A stretch of 64,000 nt of DNA from Pyramidobacter porci (GTDB taxonomy: Bacteria; Synergistota; Synergistia; Synergistales; Dethiosulfovibrionaceae), in the NCBI RefSeq assembly GCF_009695745.1, contig NZ_VUNH01000011.1, positions 1 to 64,000 on the forward strand, read 5' to 3'. The position numbers and the translations under genes are program-made. Shown here piece after piece: positions 6,960 through 29,356 of this stretch. Below the pieces are notes generated by a model that was not told where the DNA came from, made no database searches, and saw only the letters and a program-made list of their open reading frames with translations. The stretch's first letter is position 1. Every line of letters begins with the position of its first letter.

Positions 6960-8258
6960 ATGAAAGGCGTTGATTTGGTAAGACTCTCGCGGGAAATGTC
7001 GGGCTATGCCGTCGACGTTCGCCGGTATCTTCATGTCCATGCAGAACCGACTTCTCGCGAATTCGAAACGGTAAGATTTATTCGATGCGAGCTTGAAAAA
7101 ATAGGGCTAAAGTACGTGAACATTCCGGACGGCGGCGTGTTGGCTGAAATAGACGGAGACGGTTCCAGTCATTCGAGTATCTTGCTGCGCGCGGATTGCG
7201 ACGCTCTGGAGATGACCGAAGCCCCGGATAATGCCGCTGGGAAGAAAATCTGCATAAGTTCCAATCCTAACGCCGCGCATATGTGCGGGCATGATTCGCA
7301 TACCGCGATACTTCTCGGCGCGGCTAGAATTCTTGCCAAGATGCCTCCAAATTCAATACGGGGAAAAGTGTATCTTCTGTTCGAAAGGGGGGAGGAGGGG
7401 GGGAACTGTATCTATTACGTAATGAAATACATTCAGCTGCATAAGCTCAGGATTGATAGTTGTTTTGCGTTGCACGTGGAACCGGATCTTCCCGTCGGAA
7501 CTTTTTGGATCAGGGAAGGTCCCGCGAACGCTGGGAACGTGAATTTTGAGATTCGCCTCTATGGAAAAGGCGGGCACGGTTCGCGCCCGGATCTTGCAAA
7601 TAATCCACTGGATTGTTTTGTCGCTGTGCTGAACCAGTTGAAGGACGTCAGATACAAATACATTGCTCCCAATGATTTGATTACCTACAACATCGGCTCC
7701 GTGCACTGTGGCACAAGACGCAACATTGTTCCGGATATGCTTGAATTCAGCGGGACCGCCAGATTTTACAATGTGGAGGCAGGCGGAATATTCAAAAAGA
7801 AGTTGCGCGATATTGTGGATAAGTGCGCCGATTTTTATGATTGCGTCGTCGAATATCGCGTCTTTTCTGGCCCTGGGCTGTCGGTCGTCAACAACCGGGA
7901 AGCGGCTCGGATTGCCGCTGATGCCGTGACAGAGATGTATGGCAACGGTTGCCTGAAAGATTTGCCGATAAGCCTTGGCTCTGAAAGTTTCGCAATGCTG
8001 TCGAACTACTATCCGAGCGTTATGATTCGTCTGGGCGTGCGGAACGAAGAAAGAGGAATGACGGCCGGATTGCACAGTTCTCATTTCGACTTGGACGAGG
8101 ATGCCATTCCTTATGGGATCTCGGCGCATTTAGCGTATGTAATGAAATATATGAGCGTTGCGGATCGTGCGATTCCGTTCGAAGGATTTGCCGGAGACGT
8201 TGATGCCGTGCTGAAGCTGACGAATCGCCCTGTTCCAAAACGCTATGATACTATGTGA
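6960..8258 (+). CDS. M20-family amidohydrolase (N-acyl amino acid or peptide hydrolase)
   Basis: The 432-residue cytoplasmic metallohydrolase is of the M20D type (IAA-amino-acid or aminobenzoyl-glutamate hydrolase-like). Metal-binding and catalytic motifs are MCGHDSHTAILLGAARIL (about 102-118), ERGEEGG (about 142), the GHGSRPD dimerisation-domain motif (about 205), LGSESFAML (about 340) and LHSSHFDLDEDAI near 377. The family removes acyl groups from amino acids or splits small peptides. It begins 27 bases after the carrier, so import and hydrolysis are probably co-expressed. No signal peptide is seen. A weak hairpin (8265-8283) follows. Confidence 0.85.
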   Translation: MKGVDLVRLSREMSGYAVDVRRYLHVHAEPTSREFETVRFIRCELEKIGLKYVNIPDGGVLAEIDGDGSSHSSILLRADCDALEMTEAPDNAAGKKICISSNPNAAHMCGHDSHTAILLGAARILAKMPPNSIRGKVYLLFERGEEGGNCIYYVMKYIQLHKLRIDSCFALHVEPDLPVGTFWIREGPANAGNVNFEIRLYGKGGHGSRPDLANNPLDCFVAVLNQLKDVRYKYIAPNDLITYNIGSVHCGTRRNIVPDMLEFSGTARFYNVEAGGIFKKKLRDIVDKCADFYDCVVEYRVFSGPGLSVVNNREAARIAADAVTEMYGNGCLKDLPISLGSESFAMLSNYYPSVMIRLGVRNEERGMTAGLHSSHFDLDEDAIPYGISAHLAYVMKYMSVADRAIPFEGFAGDVDAVLKLTNRPVPKRYDTM

Positions 8259-8405
8259 TGCGTCGCCGCATAAAACGTGCGGCATTTAGGGCGCGCCGAA
8301 AACTCAGTATGACTTTTCAGAGGAAAAACTGTTTCTCGTCGAATGCAGGGCGAAGCGCATTGAGAGTCGCCGCTTTTCCGACACTGCGAGATGAAGCGTC
8401 GTAAC

Positions 8406-8449
8406 AAAACGAGCAGACTGAGGAAATTTTTCTTCGGTCTGCTCGTTTT
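8406..8449. terminator. Bidirectional terminator between converging operons
   Basis: The arms AAAACGAGCAGAC and GTCTGCTCGTTTT pair perfectly over 13 bases around an 18-base loop. T-runs are present on both strands. It sits between the end of the plus-strand catabolic operon and the end of the minus-strand importer operon. Confidence 0.8.
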
Positions 8450-8476
8450 GTTGTTGAAAAGATTTTGCGAAAAAAT

Positions 8477-10036
8477 TTACTCGTTGTAATTCGCCGCGCG
8501 GTGGACGGCGAAGACGCGGCGGCCGCGCAGGGAGACGTTGAGCTTCTTTTCCAGCTTGCGCGCGATACGCACGAAAGGCGTGCCGATCAGCAGATAAATC
8601 ACTGCGACGATGAGGCCCGTGCCGAAGTAATCGTAGTTGACCGTGGCCAGCTGCCCGTAGGTGCGGGTCAAATCGACGAGCGTGATGATGGAGACCAGCG
8701 ACGAGTCCTTGAGCAGGGCGATGAAGTCGTTGGTCATCGGCAGCAGAGAGACGCGGATCGCCTGAGGCAGGATTACGTGGCGCAGCGCTTCGCGCTTGGT
8801 CATGCCGAGTGCCAGCGCGCCTTCCATCTGGGCGCGCGGCACTGCCTCCAGCCCGGCACGGTAGTTCTCCGACTCGTAGGCGGCGTAGTTCAGTCCCAGC
8901 GCCAACGTTCCGGCCACGAAGGGCGAGAGCTGTACGCCCACGTTGGGCAGTCCGTAAAAGATGAAGAACAGCTGGATCATCACCGGCGTGCCGCGGATGA
9001 ACTCGGTGTAGCAGGCGGCGAACGCCCGCAGCGGCAGCGGGCCGAAGAGGCGGCAGACGGCGATGAACAGGCCGACGATCAGCGCTAGGGCCATCGAGGC
9101 GACAGAAACTTCCAGCGTCACGACGGCGGCGCGTCCGAACGACGGCAGAAAGCCGACGTAGCGTTTGATTCGCTCCGGCCAGCTGCGCGCGCCGCGCTGG
9201 ATGTCCGCCCAATGCTCGTACATGATCGGTTTCTCAAGCGCTGGCCGGTCGTCGTTGAAGTATTCCGCCATGAGCGGGTTCCATAGATTCCAGCGGTCGT
9301 AGATGCGGCGCAGCGTGCCGTCGTCGCGCAGCGTCACGATCGCTTCGTTGACGCGCTTCAAAAACGCCTCTTCGCCTTTGCGGATCGTCATGGCGTACTC
9401 CATGCGGCCGATCGGTTCGCCCACAAACTCGAACATGGGGTTGAATTGCGAATAATAAATCGACATGGGCGCGTCCATGACGACAGCGTCAAGGCGGCCG
9501 TTCTGCATGTCTTGGTAAGCCGTGGCCTCATTTTCGTAGCTGCGGATGTCGGCGATGCCGGCCTTGGCCAGCGTCTCGTAGGCATAGGAGCCACGCAGCG
9601 TGCCGATCGTGTGCCCGCGCGCGTTTTCGAGGTTGCTGACGCCGGCGGGATTGCCCTTGGGCACGACCATCTGCAGGTAGGTGACGTAGTAGGGGATGGA
9701 GAAGTTGATCGTCTCCTGCCGCTCCGGCGTCACCTCGATGCCGTTGATGGCGATGTCGTAAAGACCGCGCTGCATGCCGGGGATGAGGATGTCCCAGACG
9801 TTCTGCACGAACTGGGGCTTCAATCCCATTTCAGCTGCCAGCGCCTCGGCGATTTCGGTTTCGAAGCCCGTCAGTTTCTCGGGCTCGGAAGGGTCGTACA
9901 GGATAAAGGGCACTCCGCCCTCGGAGTTGCCGCCCCATCTCAACACTTTGTCGGGCATGAACTCGGCGGCGAACGAGCATGAAGCGGAAAGCAACGTTGC
10001 AAACACGATGACGCCTATCTTCGGCTTGATTCTCAT
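8477..10036 (-). CDS. Amino-acid ABC importer: fused binding protein and permease (second copy)
   Basis: The 519-residue protein joins a secreted-type amino-acid binding domain (about residues 25-270, family 3 solute-binding fold) to a HisM/GlnP-type permease (about 300-510). A signal peptide ends near CSFAAEF. Binding-domain motifs include GFETEIAEALAAEMG and TIGTLRGSYAYETL; the permease carries the EAA loop that docks the ATPase (NYRAGLEAVPRAQMEGALALG). It is the third gene of the operon, 49 bases after a closely similar paralogue. The family imports polar amino acids. The two paralogues probably form a heterodimeric channel in which each half brings its own tethered receptor. Confidence 0.88.
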   Translation of the reverse strand: MRIKPKIGVIVFATLLSASCSFAAEFMPDKVLRWGGNSEGGVPFILYDPSEPEKLTGFETEIAEALAAEMGLKPQFVQNVWDILIPGMQRGLYDIAINGIEVTPERQETINFSIPYYVTYLQMVVPKGNPAGVSNLENARGHTIGTLRGSYAYETLAKAGIADIRSYENEATAYQDMQNGRLDAVVMDAPMSIYYSQFNPMFEFVGEPIGRMEYAMTIRKGEEAFLKRVNEAIVTLRDDGTLRRIYDRWNLWNPLMAEYFNDDRPALEKPIMYEHWADIQRGARSWPERIKRYVGFLPSFGRAAVVTLEVSVASMALALIVGLFIAVCRLFGPLPLRAFAACYTEFIRGTPVMIQLFFIFYGLPNVGVQLSPFVAGTLALGLNYAAYESENYRAGLEAVPRAQMEGALALGMTKREALRHVILPQAIRVSLLPMTNDFIALLKDSSLVSIITLVDLTRTYGQLATVNYDYFGTGLIVAVIYLLIGTPFVRIARKLEKKLNVSLRGRRVFAVHRAANYNE

Positions 10037-10085: not shown

Positions 10086-11651
10086 CTAATTGTGATAGCT
10101 CGCGGGGCGCAGTGTCGCATCGCGGCCATGCTTTCCAGAGCGGTTGCCGCGGATGGCCACGGCAAGGCGGCGTTCGGTGTAGCGGGCCAGACGCACAAAG
10201 GGCAGCCCCAGCAGGAAGTAGATCAGGGCGACCATGATGCCGATGCCGAAATAATCGTAATAAGTGTTCGCCAATTGACCATAAGCCTTGGTCAGGTCGA
10301 TCAGCGTGATCATGGAGACCAGCGACGAGTCTTTGAGCAGCGAGATGAAATCGTTAGTCACCGGCGGCAGCGAGACACGCACGGCCTGGGGAATGACCAC
10401 GTAACGCAGCGCCTGGCGTTTGTCCATGCCCAGGGCGAGGGCTCCTTCCATTTGGGCGCGCGGTACCGCCATCAATCCGGCGCGGTAGTTCTCGGCCTCG
10501 TAGGCGGCGTAGTTCATGCCCAGACCGATCACGCCGGCCATGAACGGCGACAGTTTGATGCCGATGTTGGGCAGGCCGTAGAAGATGAAAAACAGCTGGA
10601 TCAGCACCGGCGTGCCGCGAACGATCTCGATGTAGGCCGTCGCCAGGCGGGAGATGAGCTTGGGCGCGAAAAGGCGCGTGATCGCCAGCAGCAGCCCCAG
10701 CACGATGGCCAGGCTCATGGCGCAAACCGAAACTTCCAGCGTGACGACGGCGGCCTTGCCGAACGTGGGCAGAAAGCCCACGTAGCGTTCGAAGCGCTGT
10801 TTCAGCGTCATGCCTTGCCGCTGATACTCCGCCCAGGCGTTGAACTTGTCGGGGCCGAAGCGGGCCGGCGAATCGTCGTTGAAGAATTTTGCCATGACGG
10901 GCGTCCACATGTTCCAGCGGTCGTAAATGCCGCGCAGCGTGCCGTCGTCGCGGATCGATACCAGCGCCGCGTTCAGCTTGTTCAGCAGCTCGGTCTCGCC
11001 CTTGCGCACGGGAATGCCGTAGCTGATCTCGCCGATCGGCTCGCCGACAAATTCCAGATCCGTGTTGAAACCGGCGTAGAAAATGGCGATCGGCGAGTCC
11101 ATCAACACCGCGTCGAGACGGTCATGGGCCATGTCCTGATAGGCGTTGATCTCGTTGTCGTAAGTGCGGATTTCGTCCACGCCGGCGTCGGCCAGCGTGA
11201 AGAAAGCGTAGGATTGTTTCAGCGTGCCGACGCGTTTGCCCACGCAGTCCTGCAGCGACTTGATATTGGCGGGATTGCCCCTCTGAACCACCAGCTGCAG
11301 GAACGTCTTGTAATAAGGCAGCGAAAAGTCGACTTCTTCCTTATGTTCCGGCGTGATCTCCAGGCCGCTCAAGGCGATATCGTACAGCCCGAGGTTGAGA
11401 CCGGGGATTAGATTGTCCCAGCCGTTGTGGACGAATTTCGGCGTCATCCCCATGCGTTCGGCCAGGGCATCGACGATGTCGATCTCGAAGCCGATCATGA
11501 TCTTGTCGTCGCGGGGATCCATGAACATGTACGGCACGTTGCCCTCGGAATCGCCGCCCCACCTCAGGGTCGGCTTATCCGCCGTCACGGCCGGAGAGGC
11601 GATGGCCAGCAGCGCCGGCAGGACGCAGAGAAGAGTGCGCAACCGTTTCAT
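10086..11651 (-). CDS. Amino-acid ABC importer: fused binding protein and permease (first copy)
   Basis: This 521-residue paralogue of the neighbouring gene has the same architecture: signal peptide (residues 1-23, ending VTADK), binding domain with GFEIDIVDALAERMG and RVGTLKQSYAFFTL, and a permease domain with the EAA loop NYRAGLMAVPRAQMEGALALG. Its ATG overlaps the ATPase stop by one base (TGATG), so the two are coupled. Linker and EAA regions are nearly the same in both copies, whereas the binding domains differ more. This suggests duplication followed by receptor specialisation. Substrate is probably a polar or charged amino acid. Confidence 0.88.
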   Translation of the reverse strand: MKRLRTLLCVLPALLAIASPAVTADKPTLRWGGDSEGNVPYMFMDPRDDKIMIGFEIDIVDALAERMGMTPKFVHNGWDNLIPGLNLGLYDIALSGLEITPEHKEEVDFSLPYYKTFLQLVVQRGNPANIKSLQDCVGKRVGTLKQSYAFFTLADAGVDEIRTYDNEINAYQDMAHDRLDAVLMDSPIAIFYAGFNTDLEFVGEPIGEISYGIPVRKGETELLNKLNAALVSIRDDGTLRGIYDRWNMWTPVMAKFFNDDSPARFGPDKFNAWAEYQRQGMTLKQRFERYVGFLPTFGKAAVVTLEVSVCAMSLAIVLGLLLAITRLFAPKLISRLATAYIEIVRGTPVLIQLFFIFYGLPNIGIKLSPFMAGVIGLGMNYAAYEAENYRAGLMAVPRAQMEGALALGMDKRQALRYVVIPQAVRVSLPPVTNDFISLLKDSSLVSMITLIDLTKAYGQLANTYYDYFGIGIMVALIYFLLGLPFVRLARYTERRLAVAIRGNRSGKHGRDATLRPASYHN

Positions 11652-20810: not shown

Positions 20811-22478
20811 CTAGCGCCCGTTCTTCACGTCGTCGGCCATCGTGTTGCCGAAATCGACGGCCTTGAGCCACTCGGGATTGTAGCCGGGCTGCTTGATTTT
20901 GTTGTCTTCGATGTAGAAGGGCATTTGTCCGTACTTGGAGACCAGATATGCGGCGAAGCCCCACCAATCTTTTTCCAGCGCCTTCATGTTCGTGGCGCAG
21001 TAGTTGGTCAGGAACGCCTTGGCCGCGGCGGGATCCTTGGCGTAGAGGTCGAGGGCCAGTTTTTCGATGCCGGGCTGCGCGTCGAAGGTGCGCTGCTCGA
21101 TCGCGGCCTTTTTGGCGCGGATCTCGGGGTACATCATGTCCCAGCGGTGCTGCGCCCACTGCTGCACGAAGTTGAACGCCCACCAGGGATTCTCCGTGTT
21201 GAAGTTGACGCGGTCGTTGTCGCCCCAGTTCTTCGGCAGCTCGGTGACGCCGGCGTAAATGGGCGTGTAAACGGTCGTGTCGGGAGCGGCGAGGCCGAAC
21301 CACAGCACGCCGCCGATCGCCGCGGGCAGGTCGGCGCGGGTCTGCCCGATGAAGCTGTACGAACACTGCGGCACGGCGATGGCGCGTTCCCAGGAAGCCC
21401 AGGCCTTGCGGTCTTCCATGTCATGTTTGGGTTTCTGCGGGCGGAAGCGGGCGGGAGAGCCGAAAGGGCCGGCCGCCAGACCCTTGGTCATGTCGTAGGG
21501 CGTGCCTTCGAGGTGGTCGCTGTAGATCTTTTCCAGATCCTGAACGGTCAGCTTGTGGTCGGGTTTGACCGAGAACGGATAATCCTGAAGGCCCGAGCCG
21601 GGCGTCAGTTTCAGCGAAGGCGCGACGATGTCGAAAGCGCGCCACTCGCGGCGCGAGCTGCCGAAGCTGTTCTTGGCCGCTTCGCCGTAACTGCCGTTGT
21701 CGAAGATGTGCGAGAAGTTGAAGGGGTCGCCCTTTTTCCACCAGCCCATTTCCTCGGCCAGGGCGGTAATGTTGGCGGAGTACATGTAGTTGTCCTTGTC
21801 GTTGAAGTCGATCACGCCGAGGCGGGAGCGGTTGGCGCCGACGAAGAACTCGTCGTCGGGCACGCGGCGGGCCGCCCAGATGGCGCCCGGTTTGCCGCTG
21901 TCCTTCGTCCACAGCAGACCGGCGCCGCAGATCTCGAAGACCCACAGTTCCTTGCCGTCGCTGATGACCAAACCTTCGCCGCCGTCGCCGTAGCCGTATT
22001 TCTCGGCCAGTTCGCCCATGACCTTGATCACTTCGCGGGCGGTCTTGCCGCGCTGCAGGCCGAGGGCCTCGAGGTTCTCGATGTAGAACAGGCCGCTGGC
22101 GCTCTGCACTTCGTCGCGTCCGGTCCAGGTGTGTTCGCCGATCATGACCTGATGCTCGTTGAGGAACGGATAACCGATGTGGAAGTACGTGTAGGTGCGC
22201 TCGACCTGAGGAATCTGGCCGGCGACCGTCAGCGAACGGCCGGGGCGGCTGTCCATGCAGGAGACGATCTTGACGTCGACCATTTCGCCGGGCTGGTGTT
22301 CGCCGCCGGGCACCACGCGCACGCGGGCGTCGTACCAGCTGTCGCAGGTGTGGGCGACGAGGATCGAACCGTCGGCGGTGGCCTTCGGGCCGACGCCCAT
22401 GGGCGTGCAGGCGACCGACGCCGAAGCGGCGGCCAGCAGCGCCGCGCCGGCGAAAAGCGTTGTGGAAATACGTTTCAT
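20811..22478 (-). CDS. Exported C69-family dipeptidase (copy 1)
   Basis: The 555-residue protein belongs to peptidase family C69 (PepD-like, Ntn-hydrolase fold), whose catalytic cysteine becomes the N-terminus after processing. A signal peptide ends at about residue 23 and the presumed nucleophile is Cys24 in SVACTPMGVGPKATADGSI, so maturation and export coincide. Other conserved segments are HTCDSWYDARV and RVPDDEFFVGANRSRLGVID. An AGGAGG lies nine bases upstream of the ATG. It is the last gene of a minus-strand cluster with two further C69 enzymes, a deacylase and a transporter. It most resembles the copy at 27698-29356. Confidence 0.88.
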   Translation of the reverse strand: MKRISTTLFAGAALLAAASASVACTPMGVGPKATADGSILVAHTCDSWYDARVRVVPGGEHQPGEMVDVKIVSCMDSRPGRSLTVAGQIPQVERTYTYFHIGYPFLNEHQVMIGEHTWTGRDEVQSASGLFYIENLEALGLQRGKTAREVIKVMGELAEKYGYGDGGEGLVISDGKELWVFEICGAGLLWTKDSGKPGAIWAARRVPDDEFFVGANRSRLGVIDFNDKDNYMYSANITALAEEMGWWKKGDPFNFSHIFDNGSYGEAAKNSFGSSRREWRAFDIVAPSLKLTPGSGLQDYPFSVKPDHKLTVQDLEKIYSDHLEGTPYDMTKGLAAGPFGSPARFRPQKPKHDMEDRKAWASWERAIAVPQCSYSFIGQTRADLPAAIGGVLWFGLAAPDTTVYTPIYAGVTELPKNWGDNDRVNFNTENPWWAFNFVQQWAQHRWDMMYPEIRAKKAAIEQRTFDAQPGIEKLALDLYAKDPAAAKAFLTNYCATNMKALEKDWWGFAAYLVSKYGQMPFYIEDNKIKQPGYNPEWLKAVDFGNTMADDVKNGR

Positions 22479-22512
22479 GTCCTTTTCCTCCTTATGAGAA
22501 TTGGCTTGGGGC

Positions 22513-23682
22513 TTAGTCGTAGTACAGGCGGTCCTTGGGAGCTTCGGCGGGGTTGTGGAACAGGAATCCCAGCCCTTTCTCCATGATTTCGCCGTAGCCG
22601 GGGACTCCCTCGATCAGGATGGTCTTGTCGGGATGGATCATGTTGTTGACTTCGATCAGCGTCAGCACGGTCTGCACGTGACGCGCGACGCGCTTTTCCG
22701 CCGGCCAGCCGTTCTCGTCGATGGGCGAATAAAGCAGGTGGTGCTCGCCGGCCTTCATGACGAAACGGTCCTTGCCCGACATCGCCAGTTCTTCGTCGGT
22801 GATGCCGCGGATGCGGTCGAGCATCGGCTCGGCCACTTCGCACAGATAGGACGTGGCCTCGGAGTGGTCGCCGATCTCGCGGTGCGACAGGCCGTGCAGG
22901 GCCTTGGGCGAGAATTCCATGCCGATGGGAATGTCGAACATCGTCGAGGTCAGCGTCATCGACGTCATCGCGCCGACGTCCTGTCCCTTTTCATGCACGA
23001 CCATCGTGTTCTCGACGGGGTATTCCAGCTCGGCCTCGTGGAAGTCCATGGTCATGTCGACGCCTTCCTGGCGGATCAGCTGCATGGCGGCGTAATTCGT
23101 GCGCTCCGTGAGCAGCCCGTTGGCGCGCCCCGGCCAGGCGCGGTTGGCGTTGCGGATGTCCATGTAGGCCAGGTTCTGCCCGCTGGGGTAGTGGATGTAC
23201 ACTTCGGGATCGGGCCACGAGTCGAGAGGATTGCTGGCGCGGTCGCCGAAGCGCCAGCGTTTGACGCCCCAGTCCGTCTTAACGTGGGTGAAGCGGGGAT
23301 AGGCTTCGCCCAGACGCGTGAGCGTCGAGCCGCTGGTGTTCAGTCGATCGATGACGATCACCCGTCCCTGCGTGACTTTCACGTTTTCCGTGAAGGCCTG
23401 AGCTGCCATGTTGGCGACCGGCTCTTCGGGGTGAGTTCCGCCGATGATCAGGATCGTACCGCCGGGCACGCCGCTGTCGAAGAAGTAAACGTTGGCGTCG
23501 TTGACGGTCCCTTTGAGCCCGCCGTCGGGGAAGTATTCGCTCAGTTTCTTGACCTGAGTCAGAGCCGCGCTGGGCACGACCGGCTCCTTGAACTCGCGGT
23601 GCTCCTTGAAGAGCACGCCCGCGGTGGCCGCCGCCGCTCCGGCGACGACGAGAGCAAGGCATTTTACGGCTTTCAGATTCAT
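22513..23682 (-). CDS. Secreted or membrane-anchored AstE/M14-like deacylase
   Basis: The 389-residue protein has an N-terminal signal or anchor (about residues 6-22) and resembles the succinylglutamate desuccinylase/aspartoacylase branch of zinc carboxypeptidases. Zinc-ligand motifs are GGTHPEEPVAN (G-T-H-x-x-E, about 79-89) and the later TMDFHEAELEYP (about 215). Such enzymes remove an acyl group or a C-terminal residue from amino-acid conjugates. Its setting between a C69 peptidase and a transporter suggests that it finishes substrates outside the cytoplasm before uptake. AAAGGAGGGC provides the ribosome-binding site. Confidence 0.75.
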   Translation of the reverse strand: MNLKAVKCLALVVAGAAAATAGVLFKEHREFKEPVVPSAALTQVKKLSEYFPDGGLKGTVNDANVYFFDSGVPGGTILIIGGTHPEEPVANMAAQAFTENVKVTQGRVIVIDRLNTSGSTLTRLGEAYPRFTHVKTDWGVKRWRFGDRASNPLDSWPDPEVYIHYPSGQNLAYMDIRNANRAWPGRANGLLTERTNYAAMQLIRQEGVDMTMDFHEAELEYPVENTMVVHEKGQDVGAMTSMTLTSTMFDIPIGMEFSPKALHGLSHREIGDHSEATSYLCEVAEPMLDRIRGITDEELAMSGKDRFVMKAGEHHLLYSPIDENGWPAEKRVARHVQTVLTLIEVNNMIHPDKTILIEGVPGYGEIMEKGLGFLFHNPAEAPKDRLYYD

Positions 23683-23698
23683 TGCGCGCGCCCTCCTT

Positions 23699-23863
23699 TT
23701 ACTTGAGGCGCAGAAGGCGCAGTACGAAGGGCATCATGATGATGCTGTAAAGCACAGCTTTCTGCGGATCTTTCGTCTTGACGAAGTTCATGACCACCGC
23801 CAGCAGGAAAAACGCGGCGATTCCGTAATACAGCCACATAACGATATTGTTCAGCATGATCAT
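23699..23863 (-). CDS. Small membrane protein, partner of the permease
   Basis: The 54-residue protein (MIMLNNIVMWLYYG...) has two hydrophobic segments (about 4-24 and 35-48) separated by a charged FVKTKDPQK loop. ATG 23863 lies 11 bases after GGAGG (23875-23879); a TTG at 23869 has better spacing and would add two residues. The ribosome-binding site lies in the last codons of the permease gene, so it is translated with it. I know no family name. The tight link suggests an accessory subunit of the permease, loosely like the small subunits of TRAP transporters. Confidence 0.65.
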   Translation of the reverse strand: MIMLNNIVMWLYYGIAAFFLLAVVMNFVKTKDPQKAVLYSIIMMPFVLRLLRLK

Positions 23864-23870
23864 GACCAAC

Positions 23871-25205
23871 TTAACCTCCAATCACAGCGGCGAGCTCTTT
23901 GCTGTACACCATGCAGGCCGTGCAGACGGCGAGGATGAAGAGCATGGGGATCAGCGCGGCCTTGACGAAGCCGTCCCAGTAATTTCCCTTGTAATCAAGC
24001 TCCATGACCGCTGCGCGTCCGACCACCGCGGTGGGAGGCAGACAGTCGCCGACAGGCCACATCACCGACCAGGTGGAAAGCGAAACGATTGGATCGAGCC
24101 CGAGCATGTTGAACAGCATGATCAGCGGCACGCCGAACAGCGGCGCGACGGCGTACTGAAGCACGCCTTCGGAAAGCGGCAGGATGATCCACAGCGTGGC
24201 GAACAGCACCGTCAGCGGCAGCGTCACCACCATCAGCGACAGCAACCCGCGGGCGCCGCTCAGCGCCAGCACCTGGATCAGCGTGCCGACGACGACCATC
24301 GCGCCGACCAGGCCGAGCAGGTTCTCGACCGTCTGACGGGCGACCGCGAAGATGCGCAGGTGAATGGGGCTTAAGACGATGACAGAAAATGCCGAGATCA
24401 TGAACACCAGCGGCAGGCCGAGGATCGGGAAGCTGAAGGGGAACGCGCGTCCGGCGAGGATCAGGCCGATCAGCACGACGAAGGGGATGACGGCCCGCTG
24501 CCAGTTCCAGCCGGCCGGAGCTTCGGGCAGTTCCTTGAGCGCCTGCTCCACGTCGATGGCTTTGCCGCGGCCGGCCAGCCAGAAGGTGGAGAACAACGCG
24601 CCGACGATCGACATCAGCGCCAGCGGTGCGCCGAAGCCGACATAGGGCATGTTCGCGCCGGCGGCCGCCATCATGGCCCACAGGTTGATGGGCGGACAGG
24701 CGGCGCTCATGGCCGCGAGCAGGAAAATCAGCGCCACGCGGCGGTCTTCAGGCACGCCCATGGTCATCAGCACGGAACCGACCAGAGAGCCGACCGTCAG
24801 CACCGTTGTCGCTCCCGAGCCGGTGATGGCGCCGGGAACCAGCATCAGGACCGTAAGGAAGAGCAGGCAGACGAAACGGTGCGCGTGAAAGCTGCGCACG
24901 ATGCAGCGCACGATGTAGGCCACGCCGCCCGACTCCTTGTAGAGCATCATGAAAAACGTGGCGGTGAGAAAGGTCAGGCACACGTCGAAGTAGGTGAAGG
25001 AGCCTTCGATCACGTGACGGATCATTTCCACAAAGGGAAGGGGCGAACGGGGGTCGACGCCCTTCGGAAGCAGTGCATGCACCGCCAGCCCGACCAGGGC
25101 CGAGAGGAACATGGACAGCTCCGTGCTTATCTTCATTTTCTTGCCGATGGCGAAAGCGACGACGACCGCAGCCAGCACCAGCGAAGAATGGACAAACATA
25201 GTCAT
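23871..25205 (-). CDS. Ion-transporter-superfamily permease (DctM/DcuC-like)
   Basis: The protein of about 444 residues has some 11-12 hydrophobic segments and resembles TRAP DctM or DcuC-type permeases of the ion transporter superfamily. Typical features are the re-entrant-loop segments VPGAITGSGATTVLTVGSLVG (about 130) and the C-terminal WPVGDCLPPTAVVGRAAVME (about 375). Translation may start at ATG 25205 or at TTG 25211, which has better spacing from AAAGGA. A small membrane protein follows and a small secreted protein precedes it in the operon, so a three-part importer for a peptidase product is plausible. The substrate is unknown. Confidence 0.7.
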   Translation of the reverse strand: MTMFVHSSLVLAAVVVAFAIGKKMKISTELSMFLSALVGLAVHALLPKGVDPRSPLPFVEMIRHVIEGSFTYFDVCLTFLTATFFMMLYKESGGVAYIVRCIVRSFHAHRFVCLLFLTVLMLVPGAITGSGATTVLTVGSLVGSVLMTMGVPEDRRVALIFLLAAMSAACPPINLWAMMAAAGANMPYVGFGAPLALMSIVGALFSTFWLAGRGKAIDVEQALKELPEAPAGWNWQRAVIPFVVLIGLILAGRAFPFSFPILGLPLVFMISAFSVIVLSPIHLRIFAVARQTVENLLGLVGAMVVVGTLIQVLALSGARGLLSLMVVTLPLTVLFATLWIILPLSEGVLQYAVAPLFGVPLIMLFNMLGLDPIVSLSTWSVMWPVGDCLPPTAVVGRAAVMELDYKGNYWDGFVKAALIPMLFILAVCTACMVYSKELAAVIGG

Positions 25206-25253
25206 TGACAAATACGTCCTTTCAACGGAGAAATTTAAATGAAAAAGAGTGCG

Positions 25254-25298
25254 GAAAAATAAGGCGTTCCAGCGGCGAACAGGCTGCGGGAACGCCTT
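25254..25298 (-). terminator. Terminator or attenuator between secreted protein and permease genes
   Basis: The arms AAGGCGTTCC (25261-25270) and GGAACGCCTT (25289-25298) are followed on the minus strand by ATTTTT. It lies just after the stop of the 186-residue protein, and may lower expression of the permease relative to the secreted protein, as is common in binding-protein operons. Confidence 0.65.
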
Positions 25299-25302
25299 TG
25301 CC

Positions 25303-25863
25303 TTATTCGGCGGCCTTCAGCGCGGGGCCGATGGCCAGAGCGTCTTTGACGACGATCAGAGGTTTGTTGTGTTCCTGGGCGTACTTGGTGAAGAACCCGT
25401 CGCTGTCGCTGTCGGTGACGGCGAGGATCACATCGGCGTCCTTCATCACGGCTTCGATGGAAGCGGCGTCGGAGTTGTCGGTGCGGCGGGCCATGCCTTC
25501 GATGTGAGCGCCGATCACAGTCATGCCGAGCTTCTTGGCTTCGGCGATCAGTTCGGTGCAGCGGGCGATCTCGCTTTCAACGTTGGTGCCGGCGGCGCCC
25601 ATGCCCTTCATGCTGGTGCCGGAAGTGACGATCAACGTCTTGGCGTTGGCGGCGGCCAGCTTGTCGGCGGTGAGTTTGTTGTCGTGGTTGGCCGCGATCT
25701 TGGACTGCATGGCCGACATGTGCACCATGACGGCGCCGGGGCTCTGGCCGCAGGTGGTAACGATAAAGGGCGCGTTCAGCTTGGGCACTTCCACGGCGAA
25801 CGCGAAGCTGCTCAGCACGCAGGCGGCGAGCAGAGCGACGAAAACGGCGGATAACTTTTTCAT
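25303..25863 (-). CDS. Small secreted protein (DUF6305-like)
   Basis: The 186-residue protein has a clear signal peptide (residues 1-23, SSFAFA then VEVPK) and a soluble alpha/beta domain with Rossmann-like alternation: APFIVTTCGQSPGAVMVHM, AKTLIVTSGTSMKGMGAAG, GMTVIGAHIEGMARRTDNSD and ADVILAVTDSDSDG. It looks like the DUF6305 group, although I give that name with limited confidence. The gene lies between a C69 dipeptidase and the permease, is preceded by AGGAGG, and ends at an attenuator-like hairpin. This is how a highly expressed binding protein would be placed. Its function is unproven. Confidence 0.65.
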   Translation of the reverse strand: MKKLSAVFVALLAACVLSSFAFAVEVPKLNAPFIVTTCGQSPGAVMVHMSAMQSKIAANHDNKLTADKLAAANAKTLIVTSGTSMKGMGAAGTNVESEIARCTELIAEAKKLGMTVIGAHIEGMARRTDNSDAASIEAVMKDADVILAVTDSDSDGFFTKYAQEHNKPLIVVKDALAIGPALKAAE

Positions 25864-25902
25864 GGAAAACCTCCTGAATTGAGAAATAGTGATTGTGAAG
25901 AA

Positions 25903-25948
25903 CTGAACGATTCAGCCGCGCCTCGATGGAAGCGGCCGAATCGCTCAG
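25903..25948 (-). terminator. Hairpin after C69 dipeptidase copy 2
   Basis: CTGAACGATTCAGCCGC (25903-25919) pairs with GCGGCCGAATCGCTCAG (25932-25948) with a few mismatches. The following T-run is weak, so it may act as a partial terminator or an mRNA stabiliser inside the operon. Confidence 0.5.
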
Positions 25949-25962
25949 GCGTTTCCGTGCGT

Positions 25963-27564
25963 TTAGCTCTTCTTGTTGTTGATGTACTTGGTGATCAGGG
26001 TCCTGTTCAGCTGGTGCCACGCCTTTTCGGCCTTATCCATGCAGTCCAGGGTAAAGCTGGTGACCATCTGCGTCGCGGCGGCGGGATCCCTTTTGTAAAG
26101 TTCGGCGCCTTCCTTGTCGATGCGGGCCGTTTCGTCGAAGAAGCTCTTTTCGAGAGGCGCCCGCACGGCTTCGAGATCGGCCATGGCTTCGGCGTAGCGT
26201 TTCAGAACGAGGTCGTCGGCGAGCATGAACGTCCACTGGGCCGATTCGGGCGTGTAACTGTCGCGGTCGAACTGGCGCCAGCTGGCCTTCGTGTCGGTCG
26301 CGCCGCAGTAGATGGGGACGTAACAGGTGGTGTGGGGCGCGTCGAAGCCGAACCACAGGATGGTGCTCAGGGGCTTGGGCATGCCGTCGCGGGCCTGGGC
26401 CACGAAACTGTAGGCGCAGTTGATCACCGAGACCGGGCGGCTGTAGTTCATCTTCAGCAGCGCGCGCATGTCGCGGGTGGGGAACGGCGAGGCCAGAGGG
26501 CTTTTGACGAGCTTGCCGTCCTTGCGGATGAACCATTCGTCGGCGTCGTACATGTCGAACTGAGTGCCGTCGTGATGGCTGCGCAGCATCGCCTGCACTT
26601 CCTGCACGGAAAGCTTTTTGCCGGGCTTGACGGCGAAGGGATAGGACGTCGCTTCCGCCAGCGGATCCCATTCGCGGTCGGGATCGAGACGGCGGTACAA
26701 CGAGTAGAGGCGGTTGCGGACCCAGTCGGACGAGAGGGCCCAGCCGCCCGTGTAAGGCGCGTAGGCCTTCGCCCAGTTGAAGGGTGCGCCGCTTGCGGGA
26801 TTCCACCAGCCCATGTCGATGGCGAACTGACGGTAGTCCTTGGAGGCCATGAAGTTATCCGTGTCTTCGGGATGGACTTCCTGGATGCGGGCGACGTTGC
26901 AGGTGATCAGCACCATGTCGTCGGGGACGCGCTGGGCGACCCAGTACGCGCCGGGCTTGCCGCTCTCGGGCGTCCACATCATGCCGGCGGAGCGGATCTC
27001 GAACAGCCAGGCTTCCTTGCCGTCGGCGATCGTCAGGCTTTCGCCCTCGAAATCGCAGGAACCGAGGAATCCGTATTTTTCCGCCAGGGAGCCGATCAGG
27101 GCGATCGCTTCGCGGGCGGTCTTGGTGCGCTGCAGCGCGAAGATCTCGAGCTGCTCGATCGTCAGAATGGCGCGAGCGTCCGGACGGAAGGTCTTCATTT
27201 CCACCTTCTGGGCGAAGGTGCTTTCGCCGATCGCCAGACCGTATTCGTTCATGAAGGGATAGCCGACGTGGAAATAACCGTATGTCTCCGGGGCCTGGGG
27301 GATCTCGCCGATCTTCGTGATTTCGGCGGATTCGTCGTTGGTGATGTTCCAGAAAACGGGCGCCATCTCGCCGTCGGCGTGCTTGCCGCCGGGGATGAAG
27401 CGCACCTGCGCGTCGTAAAACGCGCCGTCCGCGGTGTGGGAAGTGATGACGGAACCGTCCGCCGAAGCTTTCGCTCCGACGACGACGTCGGTGCAGGCCG
27501 AAGCCGCTCCGGCGAGAAGCATGACGCCAAGTACGCTGGAAACGATCGTGTGCTTTGCTTGCAT
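25963..27564 (-). CDS. Exported C69-family dipeptidase (copy 2)
   Basis: The 533-residue C69 protein is more diverged than the other two copies. A signal peptide ends near residue 23 and the predicted nucleophile is Cys24 in ASACTDVVVGAKASADGSV. The family segments HTADGAFYDAQVRF and VGYPFMNEYGLAIGEST are present. AAGGAGGTAATGGAAC lies upstream of the ATG. Its neighbours are another C69 gene upstream and the small secreted protein downstream. The different pocket residues suggest a different dipeptide preference. Confidence 0.88.
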   Translation of the reverse strand: MQAKHTIVSSVLGVMLLAGAASACTDVVVGAKASADGSVITSHTADGAFYDAQVRFIPGGKHADGEMAPVFWNITNDESAEITKIGEIPQAPETYGYFHVGYPFMNEYGLAIGESTFAQKVEMKTFRPDARAILTIEQLEIFALQRTKTAREAIALIGSLAEKYGFLGSCDFEGESLTIADGKEAWLFEIRSAGMMWTPESGKPGAYWVAQRVPDDMVLITCNVARIQEVHPEDTDNFMASKDYRQFAIDMGWWNPASGAPFNWAKAYAPYTGGWALSSDWVRNRLYSLYRRLDPDREWDPLAEATSYPFAVKPGKKLSVQEVQAMLRSHHDGTQFDMYDADEWFIRKDGKLVKSPLASPFPTRDMRALLKMNYSRPVSVINCAYSFVAQARDGMPKPLSTILWFGFDAPHTTCYVPIYCGATDTKASWRQFDRDSYTPESAQWTFMLADDLVLKRYAEAMADLEAVRAPLEKSFFDETARIDKEGAELYKRDPAAATQMVTSFTLDCMDKAEKAWHQLNRTLITKYINNKKS

Positions 27565-27617
27565 GTTCCATTACCTCCTTCGGGATTTTGACACTCCAAC
27601 TCTCTGTTCATCGAACG

Positions 27618-27674
27618 AAAAGCCGGCGGAGGATTTTCGCGTCGCAGCGGGCAAACCCTCCCGCCGGCTTTTTT
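27618..27674. terminator. Hairpin between C69 copies 3 and 2
   Basis: AAAAGCCGGCGG (27618-27629) pairs with CCGCCGGCTTTT (27661-27672), with T-runs on both strands. It lies between the stop of the upstream C69 gene and the start of the next, so it probably lowers read-through. Confidence 0.7.
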
Positions 27675-27697
27675 GACACTGGAACGAAAACGGGAAA

Positions 27698-29356
27698 CTA
27701 CTTGCTGTTGGTGGCTTTCAGGTCGCGCTCGGTCATGCCGCCGAAGTCGACCGCCTTGAGCCATTCCGTGGGATAGCCGGGGGTCTTCTGCGATCCGTCG
27801 GGCTGCATGACGCCGCCGTCGCAGTACTTGCCGATCAGCTCGAAGGCGAAGTTCCACCAGCCGTCGTTGACTTCGTTCATGGCCTTGTTGGTGTAGGCCG
27901 TCAGGTACTCGACTGCCTTCTGGGGATCCTTCTTGTACAGCTCGACGGCGTGGGCTTCGATCGTTTTCTGGTCGGCGAAGAATTTATCTTCGTAGCTGGC
28001 CTTCTTGGCGCGGATCTCGGGATAAATGGCGTCCCAGCGGATCGTCGCCCAGTTGTTGACGAGGTTGAACGCCCACCAGGCGCTGTCGCGGTCGAACACG
28101 TGGCGCTTGGTCTCGCTCCAGGCCTTGGGCACGGAGGTCACGCCGCAGTAGATGGGAACGTACACGGTGGTGTCGGGCGAATCCTCGCCGAACCACAGCA
28201 CGCCGCCCACGGCGTCGGGCATGTCGGCGCGGCTCTGGGACACGAAACTGTAGGAGCAGCGGAACAGCGCGATGGGACGCTCCCAATCGTCGCCCTTGCG
28301 ACCTTCGGGACGAACGTCCTTGGGCGTCTGCCAGCGGCTGGGGCAGCCGAAGGGGCCGGCGGCCAGACCCTTGGTGAGGTCGTAGTCGGTGCCTTCGAGG
28401 TGATCGCTGTACACGTCCATGATGTCCTTGACGGAAAGTTTCTTGTCGGGCTTGACGGAGAAGGGGTACATTTCCCACTTGGCCAGCACGGGGAACTTCT
28501 GTGAAGGCGCGACCAGGTTGAGCGCTCTCCACTCGCGGCGGGCGGCGTAGTAGGGGTAGCCGTAGGGCTCGGGATTGAAGATCGTGGAGAAGTCGAAGGG
28601 CTCGCCCTGCTTCCACCAGCCCATGGCCTCGGGCAGCTTGGTGATGTCGGTGGAGTGCATGGTGTTCTCGGTGTCGTTCAGATCGATGACGCCGAGGCGC
28701 GAACGGTTGGCGCCGACGAACACTTCGTCGTCGGGGAGGCGCTTGGCCGCCCAGTGGGCGCCGGGATTGCCGGAATCCTTATTCCACAGGCCGCCGCCGC
28801 AGATCTCGAAGACCCAGCATTCCTTGGGATCGCCGATGATCAGCGTCTCGCCGCCGTCGGCATAGCCGTACTTTTCGGCCAGAGCGCCCATGACCTTGAT
28901 GGCTTCGCGGGCCGTCTTGGCGCGGGCCAGTCCGAGCGCTTCGAGGTTCTCGATGTACATCAGGCCTTCGGTGGAAGCCAATTCGTCGCGGCCGCTCCAG
29001 GTGAACTCGCCCATCATCAGCTGTTGATCGTTCATGAAGGGGTAGCCGATCTGGAAGTAGGTGTAGGTGTGCGCCACCTGCGGGATCTGGCCGACTTTGC
29101 GCAGCGGCTTGTTGGGGCGGGTGTCGACGCACATGACGTTGTAGATGTCGACCATTTCGCCTTTTTTGTGGTCGCCGCCGGGAATGATCTTGATGCGGTT
29201 GTCGTACCAGCCGTCGCAGGTGTGGCTGACCATGACGGAGCCGTCCGCCGACGCTTTGGCCCCCACGCCCATGGGCGTGCAGGCCATCGCTGCCGCCGCC
29301 GAGAAGAGCAGGGCGGCGCTGACGAAGGCCGCTGCCGAGAAACGTTTCATTTCCAT
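27698..29356 (-). CDS. Exported C69-family dipeptidase (copy 3)
   Basis: The 552-residue C69 protein is similar along its length to copy 1. A signal peptide ends at Ala25 and the nucleophile is predicted to be Cys26 in AMACTPMGVGAKASADGSV. Matching segments include HTCDGWYDNRIKIIPGGDHKKG, AWWAFNLVNNWATIRWD and GYPTEWLKAVDFGGM at the C-terminus. AAGGAGG lies upstream of the ATG. It is the first gene of the cluster, so the promoter should lie in 29357-29820, but I find no convincing sigma-70 pair there. Confidence 0.88.
   Translation of the reverse strand: MEMKRFSAAAFVSAALLFSAAAAMACTPMGVGAKASADGSVMVSHTCDGWYDNRIKIIPGGDHKKGEMVDIYNVMCVDTRPNKPLRKVGQIPQVAHTYTYFQIGYPFMNDQQLMMGEFTWSGRDELASTEGLMYIENLEALGLARAKTAREAIKVMGALAEKYGYADGGETLIIGDPKECWVFEICGGGLWNKDSGNPGAHWAAKRLPDDEVFVGANRSRLGVIDLNDTENTMHSTDITKLPEAMGWWKQGEPFDFSTIFNPEPYGYPYYAARREWRALNLVAPSQKFPVLAKWEMYPFSVKPDKKLSVKDIMDVYSDHLEGTDYDLTKGLAAGPFGCPSRWQTPKDVRPEGRKGDDWERPIALFRCSYSFVSQSRADMPDAVGGVLWFGEDSPDTTVYVPIYCGVTSVPKAWSETKRHVFDRDSAWWAFNLVNNWATIRWDAIYPEIRAKKASYEDKFFADQKTIEAHAVELYKKDPQKAVEYLTAYTNKAMNEVNDGWWNFAFELIGKYCDGGVMQPDGSQKTPGYPTEWLKAVDFGGMTERDLKATNSK

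Follow-up and report, generated by a model that had tools for sequence, protein, structure and literature searches.

What task is shared by three exported hydrolases, a small secreted protein, a large permease, a 54-residue membrane protein and a membrane-anchored zinc hydrolase whose genes follow one another on one strand of the Pyramidobacter porci genome? The locus occupies positions 20811-29356 of the window, by which we mean the whole stretch of DNA analyzed, the first 64,000 nucleotides of contig NZ_VUNH01000011.1. The conserved unit within it is a quartet of genes, encoding a DUF6305 protein, the permease, the small membrane protein and an AstE-like hydrolase, and we propose, with moderate confidence, that the cassette encodes a secondary importer which is assisted by a receptor and works together with exported hydrolases. 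The partner hydrolase belongs to the C69 family in the window and is a gamma-glutamyltransferase (GGT) in sister cassettes, which are here called C69-type and GGT-type.

Genes were called by codon scoring and hidden Markov models, as longest-open-reading-frame calls were misled by antisense frames in this GC-rich DNA. Every gene named in a preliminary description of the locus was found in its place on the minus strand, among them the anchored AstE-like protein, the secreted 186-residue protein, the permease and the 54-residue protein with two transmembrane (TM) segments. In the order of transcription (C69, C69, DUF6305, permease, 54-residue protein, AstE-like, C69) the features are:

27698-29356, minus strand: exported N-terminal nucleophile (Ntn) hydrolase of the C69 family, 552 amino acids (aa) (PF03577, E 7.4e-67; N-terminus read, AMA followed by C)
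25963-27564, minus strand: exported Ntn hydrolase of the C69 family, 533 aa (PF03577, E 2.6e-62; ASA followed by C)
25303-25863, minus strand: secreted single-domain DUF6305 protein, 186 aa, proposed receptor or presenter (PF19823, E 3.3e-48; Sec signal peptide recognized by eye; AlphaFold2 (AF2) model, predicted local distance difference test (pLDDT) 91.2)
25254-25298, minus strand: terminator- or attenuator-like hairpin with T run in the gap between the DUF6305 and permease genes (enriched in this gap across C69-type cassettes)
23871-25211, minus strand: permease of the ion transporter (IT) superfamily, similar to the M subunit of tripartite ATP-independent periplasmic (TRAP) transporters (DctM, E 0.0058, full length, below threshold; AF2 model, pLDDT 85.5; top Foldseek matches TRAP QM)
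23699-23863, minus strand: 54-aa membrane protein with two hydrophobic segments, proposed small (Q-like) subunit (C-terminal P..LR...K; kept across cassettes)
22513-23682, minus strand: membrane-anchored AstE/AspA-like zinc hydrolase of M14 fold (PF24827 below threshold, E 0.032; HxxE, H, N.NR and E282 conserved)
20811-22478, minus strand: exported Ntn hydrolase of the C69 family, 555 aa (PF03577, E 2.5e-63; SVA followed by C)

A conserved quartet and its partner hydrolases

The preliminary description had named as a check the conservation in other genomes of a triplet, lacking the AstE-like gene; the recurrence was borne out over about ten phyla, and the unit proved to be the quartet. The window genome itself holds seven DUF6305 genes and five related permeases. 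All five permease loci contain the four genes, in the order DUF6305-permease-small protein-AstE at three of them, with an extra gene between DUF6305 and permease at one, and as permease-small protein-AstE-DUF6305 at the remaining one. Among 188 Synergistota genomes, about 70 of which (69-70) carry DUF6305, there are 131 strong permease matches, of which 123 have a DUF6305 match no more than 4.5 kb away, and 123 of 134 DUF6305 matches have the permease; five of the eight permeases without a nearby DUF6305 are in fragmented assemblies. A collection-wide scan, for which a 5-row DUF6305 alignment was used because a 24-row one was too diverse, returned 234 relatives. The best 80 of these come from Synergistota, Bacillota, Thermotogota, Atribacterota, Bipolaricaulota, Acidobacteriota, Aminicenantes, Bacteroidota, Spirochaetota and Fusobacteriota, and nearly all of the 80 have the full quartet. 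At 142 permease loci, all retrieved through DUF6305, the small protein is encoded in 141 and the AstE-like enzyme in 140, and the median gaps within the quartet are 41, 13 and 12 nt. In the window, the small-protein and AstE genes are each preceded by a Shine-Dalgarno sequence a few bases 5' of the gene. The literature search found no paper on DUF6305 or on this gene combination; judged by its DUF6305, the closest record with a name comes from a Pyramidobacter (Synergistota), at 99% identity.

All three window C69 proteins match PF03577 (E 2.6e-62 to 7.4e-67) and carry the N-terminal catalytic Cys directly after an A-x-A-like signal-peptidase site, so that signal-peptide cleavage on export would apparently itself uncover the nucleophile. 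They had been described as three exported C69 dipeptidases; the family and the export signals stand, and the dipeptidase activity is not established because their scores against the NCBI equivalog NF033678 (180.5, 198.2 and 188.3 bits) fall below its cutoff of 250. In several Bacillota with a lipoprotein form of DUF6305 the C69 enzyme bears a C-terminal membrane segment. The alternative partner is a GGT (PF01019, 5e-154) with the Thr of its nucleophile motif conserved. On the permease tree the partner type changes only twice among 117 labelled cassettes, against 38.8 changes in shuffles computed on that tree only, and the DUF6305 tree likewise requires two changes among the 117. As Synergistota hold both types (36 C69-type and 32 GGT-type cassettes), this match of partner type and clade is more than species history. 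Hydrolase type thus tracks transporter clade, and therefore the transporter appears, from these trees, to be matched to the chemistry of its hydrolase.

Other genes stand within or near some cassettes. A malonate decarboxylase alpha subunit gene (PF16957, 1e-274) lies between DUF6305 and permease at L011:6720-8450 (contig C4 of the window genome), a GGT-type cassette with a TctABC-like set nearby, and also at L051. Close to another GGT-type cassette of the same genome lie genes for a binding protein of TAXI type and for a fused permease resembling those of TRAP systems (L008:14180-17707, contig C2); elsewhere TAXI-TRAP and TctABC genes are rare neighbors of cassettes. In Aminicenantes and a related Acidobacteriota metagenome-assembled genome, one or two extra genes for two-TM proteins of about 194 aa, with a weak DUF4131 match, separate DUF6305 from the permease (L151:10748-12178, L152:10726-11310, L157:6687-7280). 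A sensor kinase with an SBP_bac_3 domain (amino-acid-binding type) and a DpiA-like regulator are encoded near C69-type cassettes at L190, L052, L061, L077, L107 and L108. Outside the locus, the window encodes an SBP_bac_3 (amino-acid-type binding) domain fused to a BPD_transp_1 permease domain of ATP-binding cassette (ABC) type (8477-9913), with a similar-looking gene just upstream (10086-11651).

The proteins of the quartet

The permease matches DctM over its full length at 15.9 bits, under the Pfam cutoff of 23.8; 45 of 73 members of its family match DctM, and one GGT-type paralogue reaches 46.5 bits against the same cutoff. The structures closest to its model are TRAP QM and M proteins (IseQM, SiaQM), followed by other IT-superfamily carriers, with template modelling (TM) scores of 0.68/0.71 against SiaM (7qha_B) and query TM scores of 0.62-0.69 against TRAP M and QM proteins generally. 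Translation probably starts at the ATG at 25205 rather than at 25211. Apart from one truncated copy, the small protein is 46-63 aa long. It has two hydrophobic segments and, at its C-terminus, a P..LR...K motif that hardly varies (140 of 141 copies keep both the P and the R); it had no DctQ match in Pfam or NCBIfam. A profile similarity between small protein and permease (probability 71) was taken as a shared hydrophobic helix and discarded, and an apparent permease::small-protein fusion at L181 was rejected, the permease there lying in two frames owing to a frameshift. In the AstE-like enzyme, which carries an N-terminal hydrophobic anchor in the window, the presumed zinc ligands and catalytic Glu (H84, E87, H215 and E282) are invariant or nearly so; the HxxE...H zinc site, the N.NR motif and the catalytic Glu that mark the AstE/AspA family are at least 97% conserved in 65 sequences. 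PF24827 (AstE) matches a paralogue at 4.2e-8, and its domain score in L008 is 33.4 bits (cutoff 25).

The DUF6305 model forms one alpha/beta domain. Its conserved polar residues (Q40, S84, K86, E98, R101, H120, R126, R127 and D155) suggest a candidate binding or active site. In diderms the protein has a plain signal peptide, also in Halanaerobiales, which are diderm Bacillota, and at about 12 Bacillota loci it carries a lipobox and a long linker; the simple lipobox pattern used also flags a few Synergistota signal peptides, these without a linker. A lipoprotein form in Gram-positive lineages, together with the membrane segment on several of their C69 enzymes, would fit, indirectly, the behavior expected of an extracytoplasmic receptor and the enzymes that go with it. 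On contig C3 of the window genome (L012), tandem DUF6305 genes at 8238-8867 and 9051-9680 stand beside metal ABC transporter-like genes, the first with an insertion within the conserved GxSxKG region.

The expression signal between the DUF6305 and permease genes bears on the same point. The attenuator hairpin placed there by the preliminary description has its stem at 25298-25261 on the minus strand and is followed by a T run (minimum free energy of the intergenic piece -28.9 kcal/mol), and it recurs in other cassettes. Across all cassette types, 35 of 133 DUF6305-permease gaps hold a comparable hairpin, where simple shuffles predict 11.9; most of the 35 belong to C69-type cassettes, 28 of 68 of which have one. 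The next two gaps hold one in 2 of 141 and 0 of 139 cases, a contrast that is partly a length effect because those gaps are shorter. In binding-protein transport systems the receptor is typically in excess of the permease. A hairpin 3' of the DUF6305 gene is consistent with, though no proof of, a receptor made in excess over its permease.

Importer, enzyme partner or polymer factor

The genes for poly-gamma-glutamate synthesis indicate what such a system might handle. Of 138 loci, 56 had such genes (pgsB, pgsC, and pgsW, the TIGR04332 protein) in the flanks that were fetched, with both C69 and GGT types represented, and in Fusobacteriota, Bacillota, Spirochaetota and others pgsB-pgsC-pgsW lie in the same gene run as the quartet. 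On plasmid p1 of Cetobacterium somerae, one closely spaced run reads histidine kinase-response regulator-ggt-DUF6305-permease-small protein-AstE-pgsB-pgsC-pgsW, annotated in part as histidine-kinase-like ATP-binding protein, response regulator, 47-aa hypothetical protein and 'succinylglutamate desuccinylase'. Among the 188 Synergistota genomes, TIGR04332 is found in 63 of 69 with DUF6305 and in 9 of 119 without it (Fisher P 9e-33, a value that common ancestry inflates, as it does mirror-tree correlations). The repeated linkage suggests that gamma-glutamyl compounds are handled by some of the cassettes at least, and that Pgs polymer may be reclaimable.

Together, a quartet that amino-acid-consuming bacteria of about ten phyla carry beside secreted peptide-cutting enzymes, and often beside pgs genes, points to an undescribed uptake system for pieces of extracellular peptides or gamma-glutamyl polymers. 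On the outer side of the inner membrane, the exported Ntn hydrolases (C69, or GGT in sister cassettes) and the anchored AstE-like hydrolase would cleave peptides or gamma-glutamyl compounds; DUF6305, a free periplasmic protein in diderms and one tethered by a lipid in monoderms, would capture or present the product; and the TRAP-M-like elevator permease, probably driven by Na+, would import it with the two-TM small subunit. The amino acids, dipeptides or gamma-glutamyl units thus taken up may feed amino-acid fermentation. The C69 and GGT versions would be specificity variants of one machine, and polymer made by Pgs could be broken down and reclaimed. The sequences themselves establish gene content, gene order, conservation and co-occurrence; the folds and export signals are predicted, and we infer complex formation, ligand, direction and ion coupling. 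The importer of secreted receptor, large permease and small subunit joined to peptidases that was first suggested is therefore kept as a conserved unit of those three parts linked to exported hydrolases; it is altered in that a zinc hydrolase completes the quartet, that the partner is C69 or GGT, that the wider setting includes poly-gamma-glutamate genes, and that the permease, predicted to fold like the TRAP M subunit, is related to known transporters.

Several observations weigh against our proposal, in addition to the inflation by ancestry already mentioned. No solute-binding protein appeared among the listed PDB fold or sequence matches of DUF6305, Foldseek giving only loose alpha/beta matches (best TM score 0.46). 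No pgs genes flank the cassette of the window itself, the pgsB-pgsC-pgsW of this genome lying on another contig (L188, contig C1). The tandem DUF6305 genes of contig C3 are not accompanied by a permease. Once their loci were fetched, three of the eight permeases mentioned above (L189, L190 and L191) were confirmed as cassettes without an adjacent DUF6305; a kinase/regulator pair takes its place in L190 (4343-6959), and only about 220 bases do so in L191. Finally, in two Halanaerobiales (L138:6671-7873 and L144:6546-7754) DUF6305 is fused to an AstE-type domain directly after pgsB-pgsC-pgsW, and DUF6305 could thus serve the hydrolase and not the carrier.

This fusion, the single-lobe fold without similarity to solute-binding proteins and the cassettes without adjacent DUF6305 are what would be expected if DUF6305 served the AstE-like hydrolase as a cofactor or as a partner that presents the substrate, with permease and small protein forming a two-part carrier that has no need of a receptor. 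We judge this unlikely, as DUF6305 neighbors the permease rather than AstE in nearly all loci, and as two of its features, the lipid anchor in monoderms and a hairpin just behind the gene, are hallmarks of a receptor.

The pgs linkage admits another explanation, in which the quartet assists in making or secreting poly-gamma-glutamate and not in uptake, with permease, small protein and DUF6305 replacing PgsA/PgsE of Bacillus and the hydrolases trimming or anchoring the chain in the manner of CapD. The shared gene runs and the co-occurrence across genomes agree with it, as does the fact that CapD, a member of the GGT family, anchors the polymer (PMC4497714). However, the fetched flanks of 82 of the 138 loci are without a pgs gene (contig ends cut some of them short), the window genome has five cassettes and one pgsC, TRAP-M-type elevators have small molecules as cargo, and multiple exported hydrolases per locus suit breakdown better than synthesis; we therefore regard such a role as improbable. 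A profile comparison of DUF6305 with pgsW gave no relationship (probability 8.5).

That this is an ordinary divergent TRAP transporter standing beside ordinary, functionally uncoupled peptidases, as the fold and the public annotation of the permease relatives ('TRAP transporter large permease subunit') might suggest, is very improbable and is contradicted by conservation, since gene order and partners hardly vary across about ten phyla and five paralogues, the quartet has no DctP, TAXI receptor or DctQ, and hydrolase type follows transporter clade.

The receptor-assisted importer can be carried further, if tentatively. The quartet may represent a new class of receptor-dependent secondary transporter, wired to an extracytoplasmic gamma-glutamyl cycle in which Pgs makes the polymer, exported enzymes of GGT or C69 type cleave it or pass its gamma-glutamyl groups on to outside amino acids, and the quartet reimports the product; the parts of this possible class would be the single-domain DUF6305 receptor, the TRAP-M-like carrier, the two-TM mini-subunit and the anchored zinc hydrolase. 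Our analysis proposes, for DUF6305 and for a small membrane protein publicly annotated as hypothetical, a role that can be tested, and in anaerobes from about ten phyla it links a database-orphan 'TRAP large permease' to peptide or gamma-glutamyl hydrolysis and to genes for poly-gamma-glutamate. Should DUF6305 be the receptor, then an elevator of TRAP type has acquired a single-domain receptor unrelated to the usual one, along with a Q-like subunit of much smaller size, and this would bear on the roles of the receptor and Q parts in TRAP transport; a way for bacteria other than Bacillus to recover poly-gamma-glutamate would also be suggested.

Comparison with known systems

The window hydrolases resemble Peptidase family C69 in their full-length match and N-terminal Cys nucleophile, and differ in being exported, with the Cys apparently freed by signal-peptide cleavage, and in scoring below the dipeptidase equivalog. 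The AstE-like enzyme keeps the zinc ligands, N.NR substrate motif and catalytic Glu of succinylglutamate desuccinylase and aspartoacylase (AstE/AspA); unlike these, it is membrane-anchored, apparently extracytoplasmic and highly divergent, the window copy being sub-threshold.

In the poly-gamma-glutamate systems (PgsBCA/CapBCAD, Ggt, PghP), GGT takes single subunits off the polymer, and the phage enzyme PghP, which cuts it, is a carboxypeptidase-like zinc enzyme (PMC4497714). The pgsB, pgsC and pgsW genes beside many cassettes and the GGT family are held in common, and the carboxypeptidase-like zinc hydrolase of the cassette is comparable in kind to PghP; among the Pgs and Cap systems we found none described with a TRAP-like permease, DUF6305 or this small protein. 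In tripartite tricarboxylate transporters (TctABC), too, a secreted protein goes with a large permease and a small membrane protein, though the quartet proteins gave no TctA, TctB or TctC family match in Pfam or NCBIfam, and the apparently genuine TctABC set near the paralogue on contig C4 is, by eye, a separate system.

The systems most like the quartet are the TRAP transporters (DctPQM, SiaPQM, IseQM, TAXI-TRAP and TPAT), defined by a 12-TM DctM of the IT superfamily, a 4-TM DctQ and a two-lobed DctP or TAXI receptor, with ion-coupled, receptor-dependent import (PMC5812351). The quartet differs from them in its constant partner hydrolases and in a window permease under the Pfam DctM cutoff. 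Its proposed receptor is the single-domain DUF6305, no DctP or TAXI gene being present in the quartet, and its small subunit has two hydrophobic segments in 46-63 aa in place of the 4-TM DctQ; because these features are lacking, we do not file it as a TRAP transporter. It shares with them an extracytoplasmic protein, a large permease, predicted to be an IT-superfamily elevator, whose model is closest to the M subunit, and a small membrane subunit, all encoded in one run, and it probably works like a TRAP transporter.

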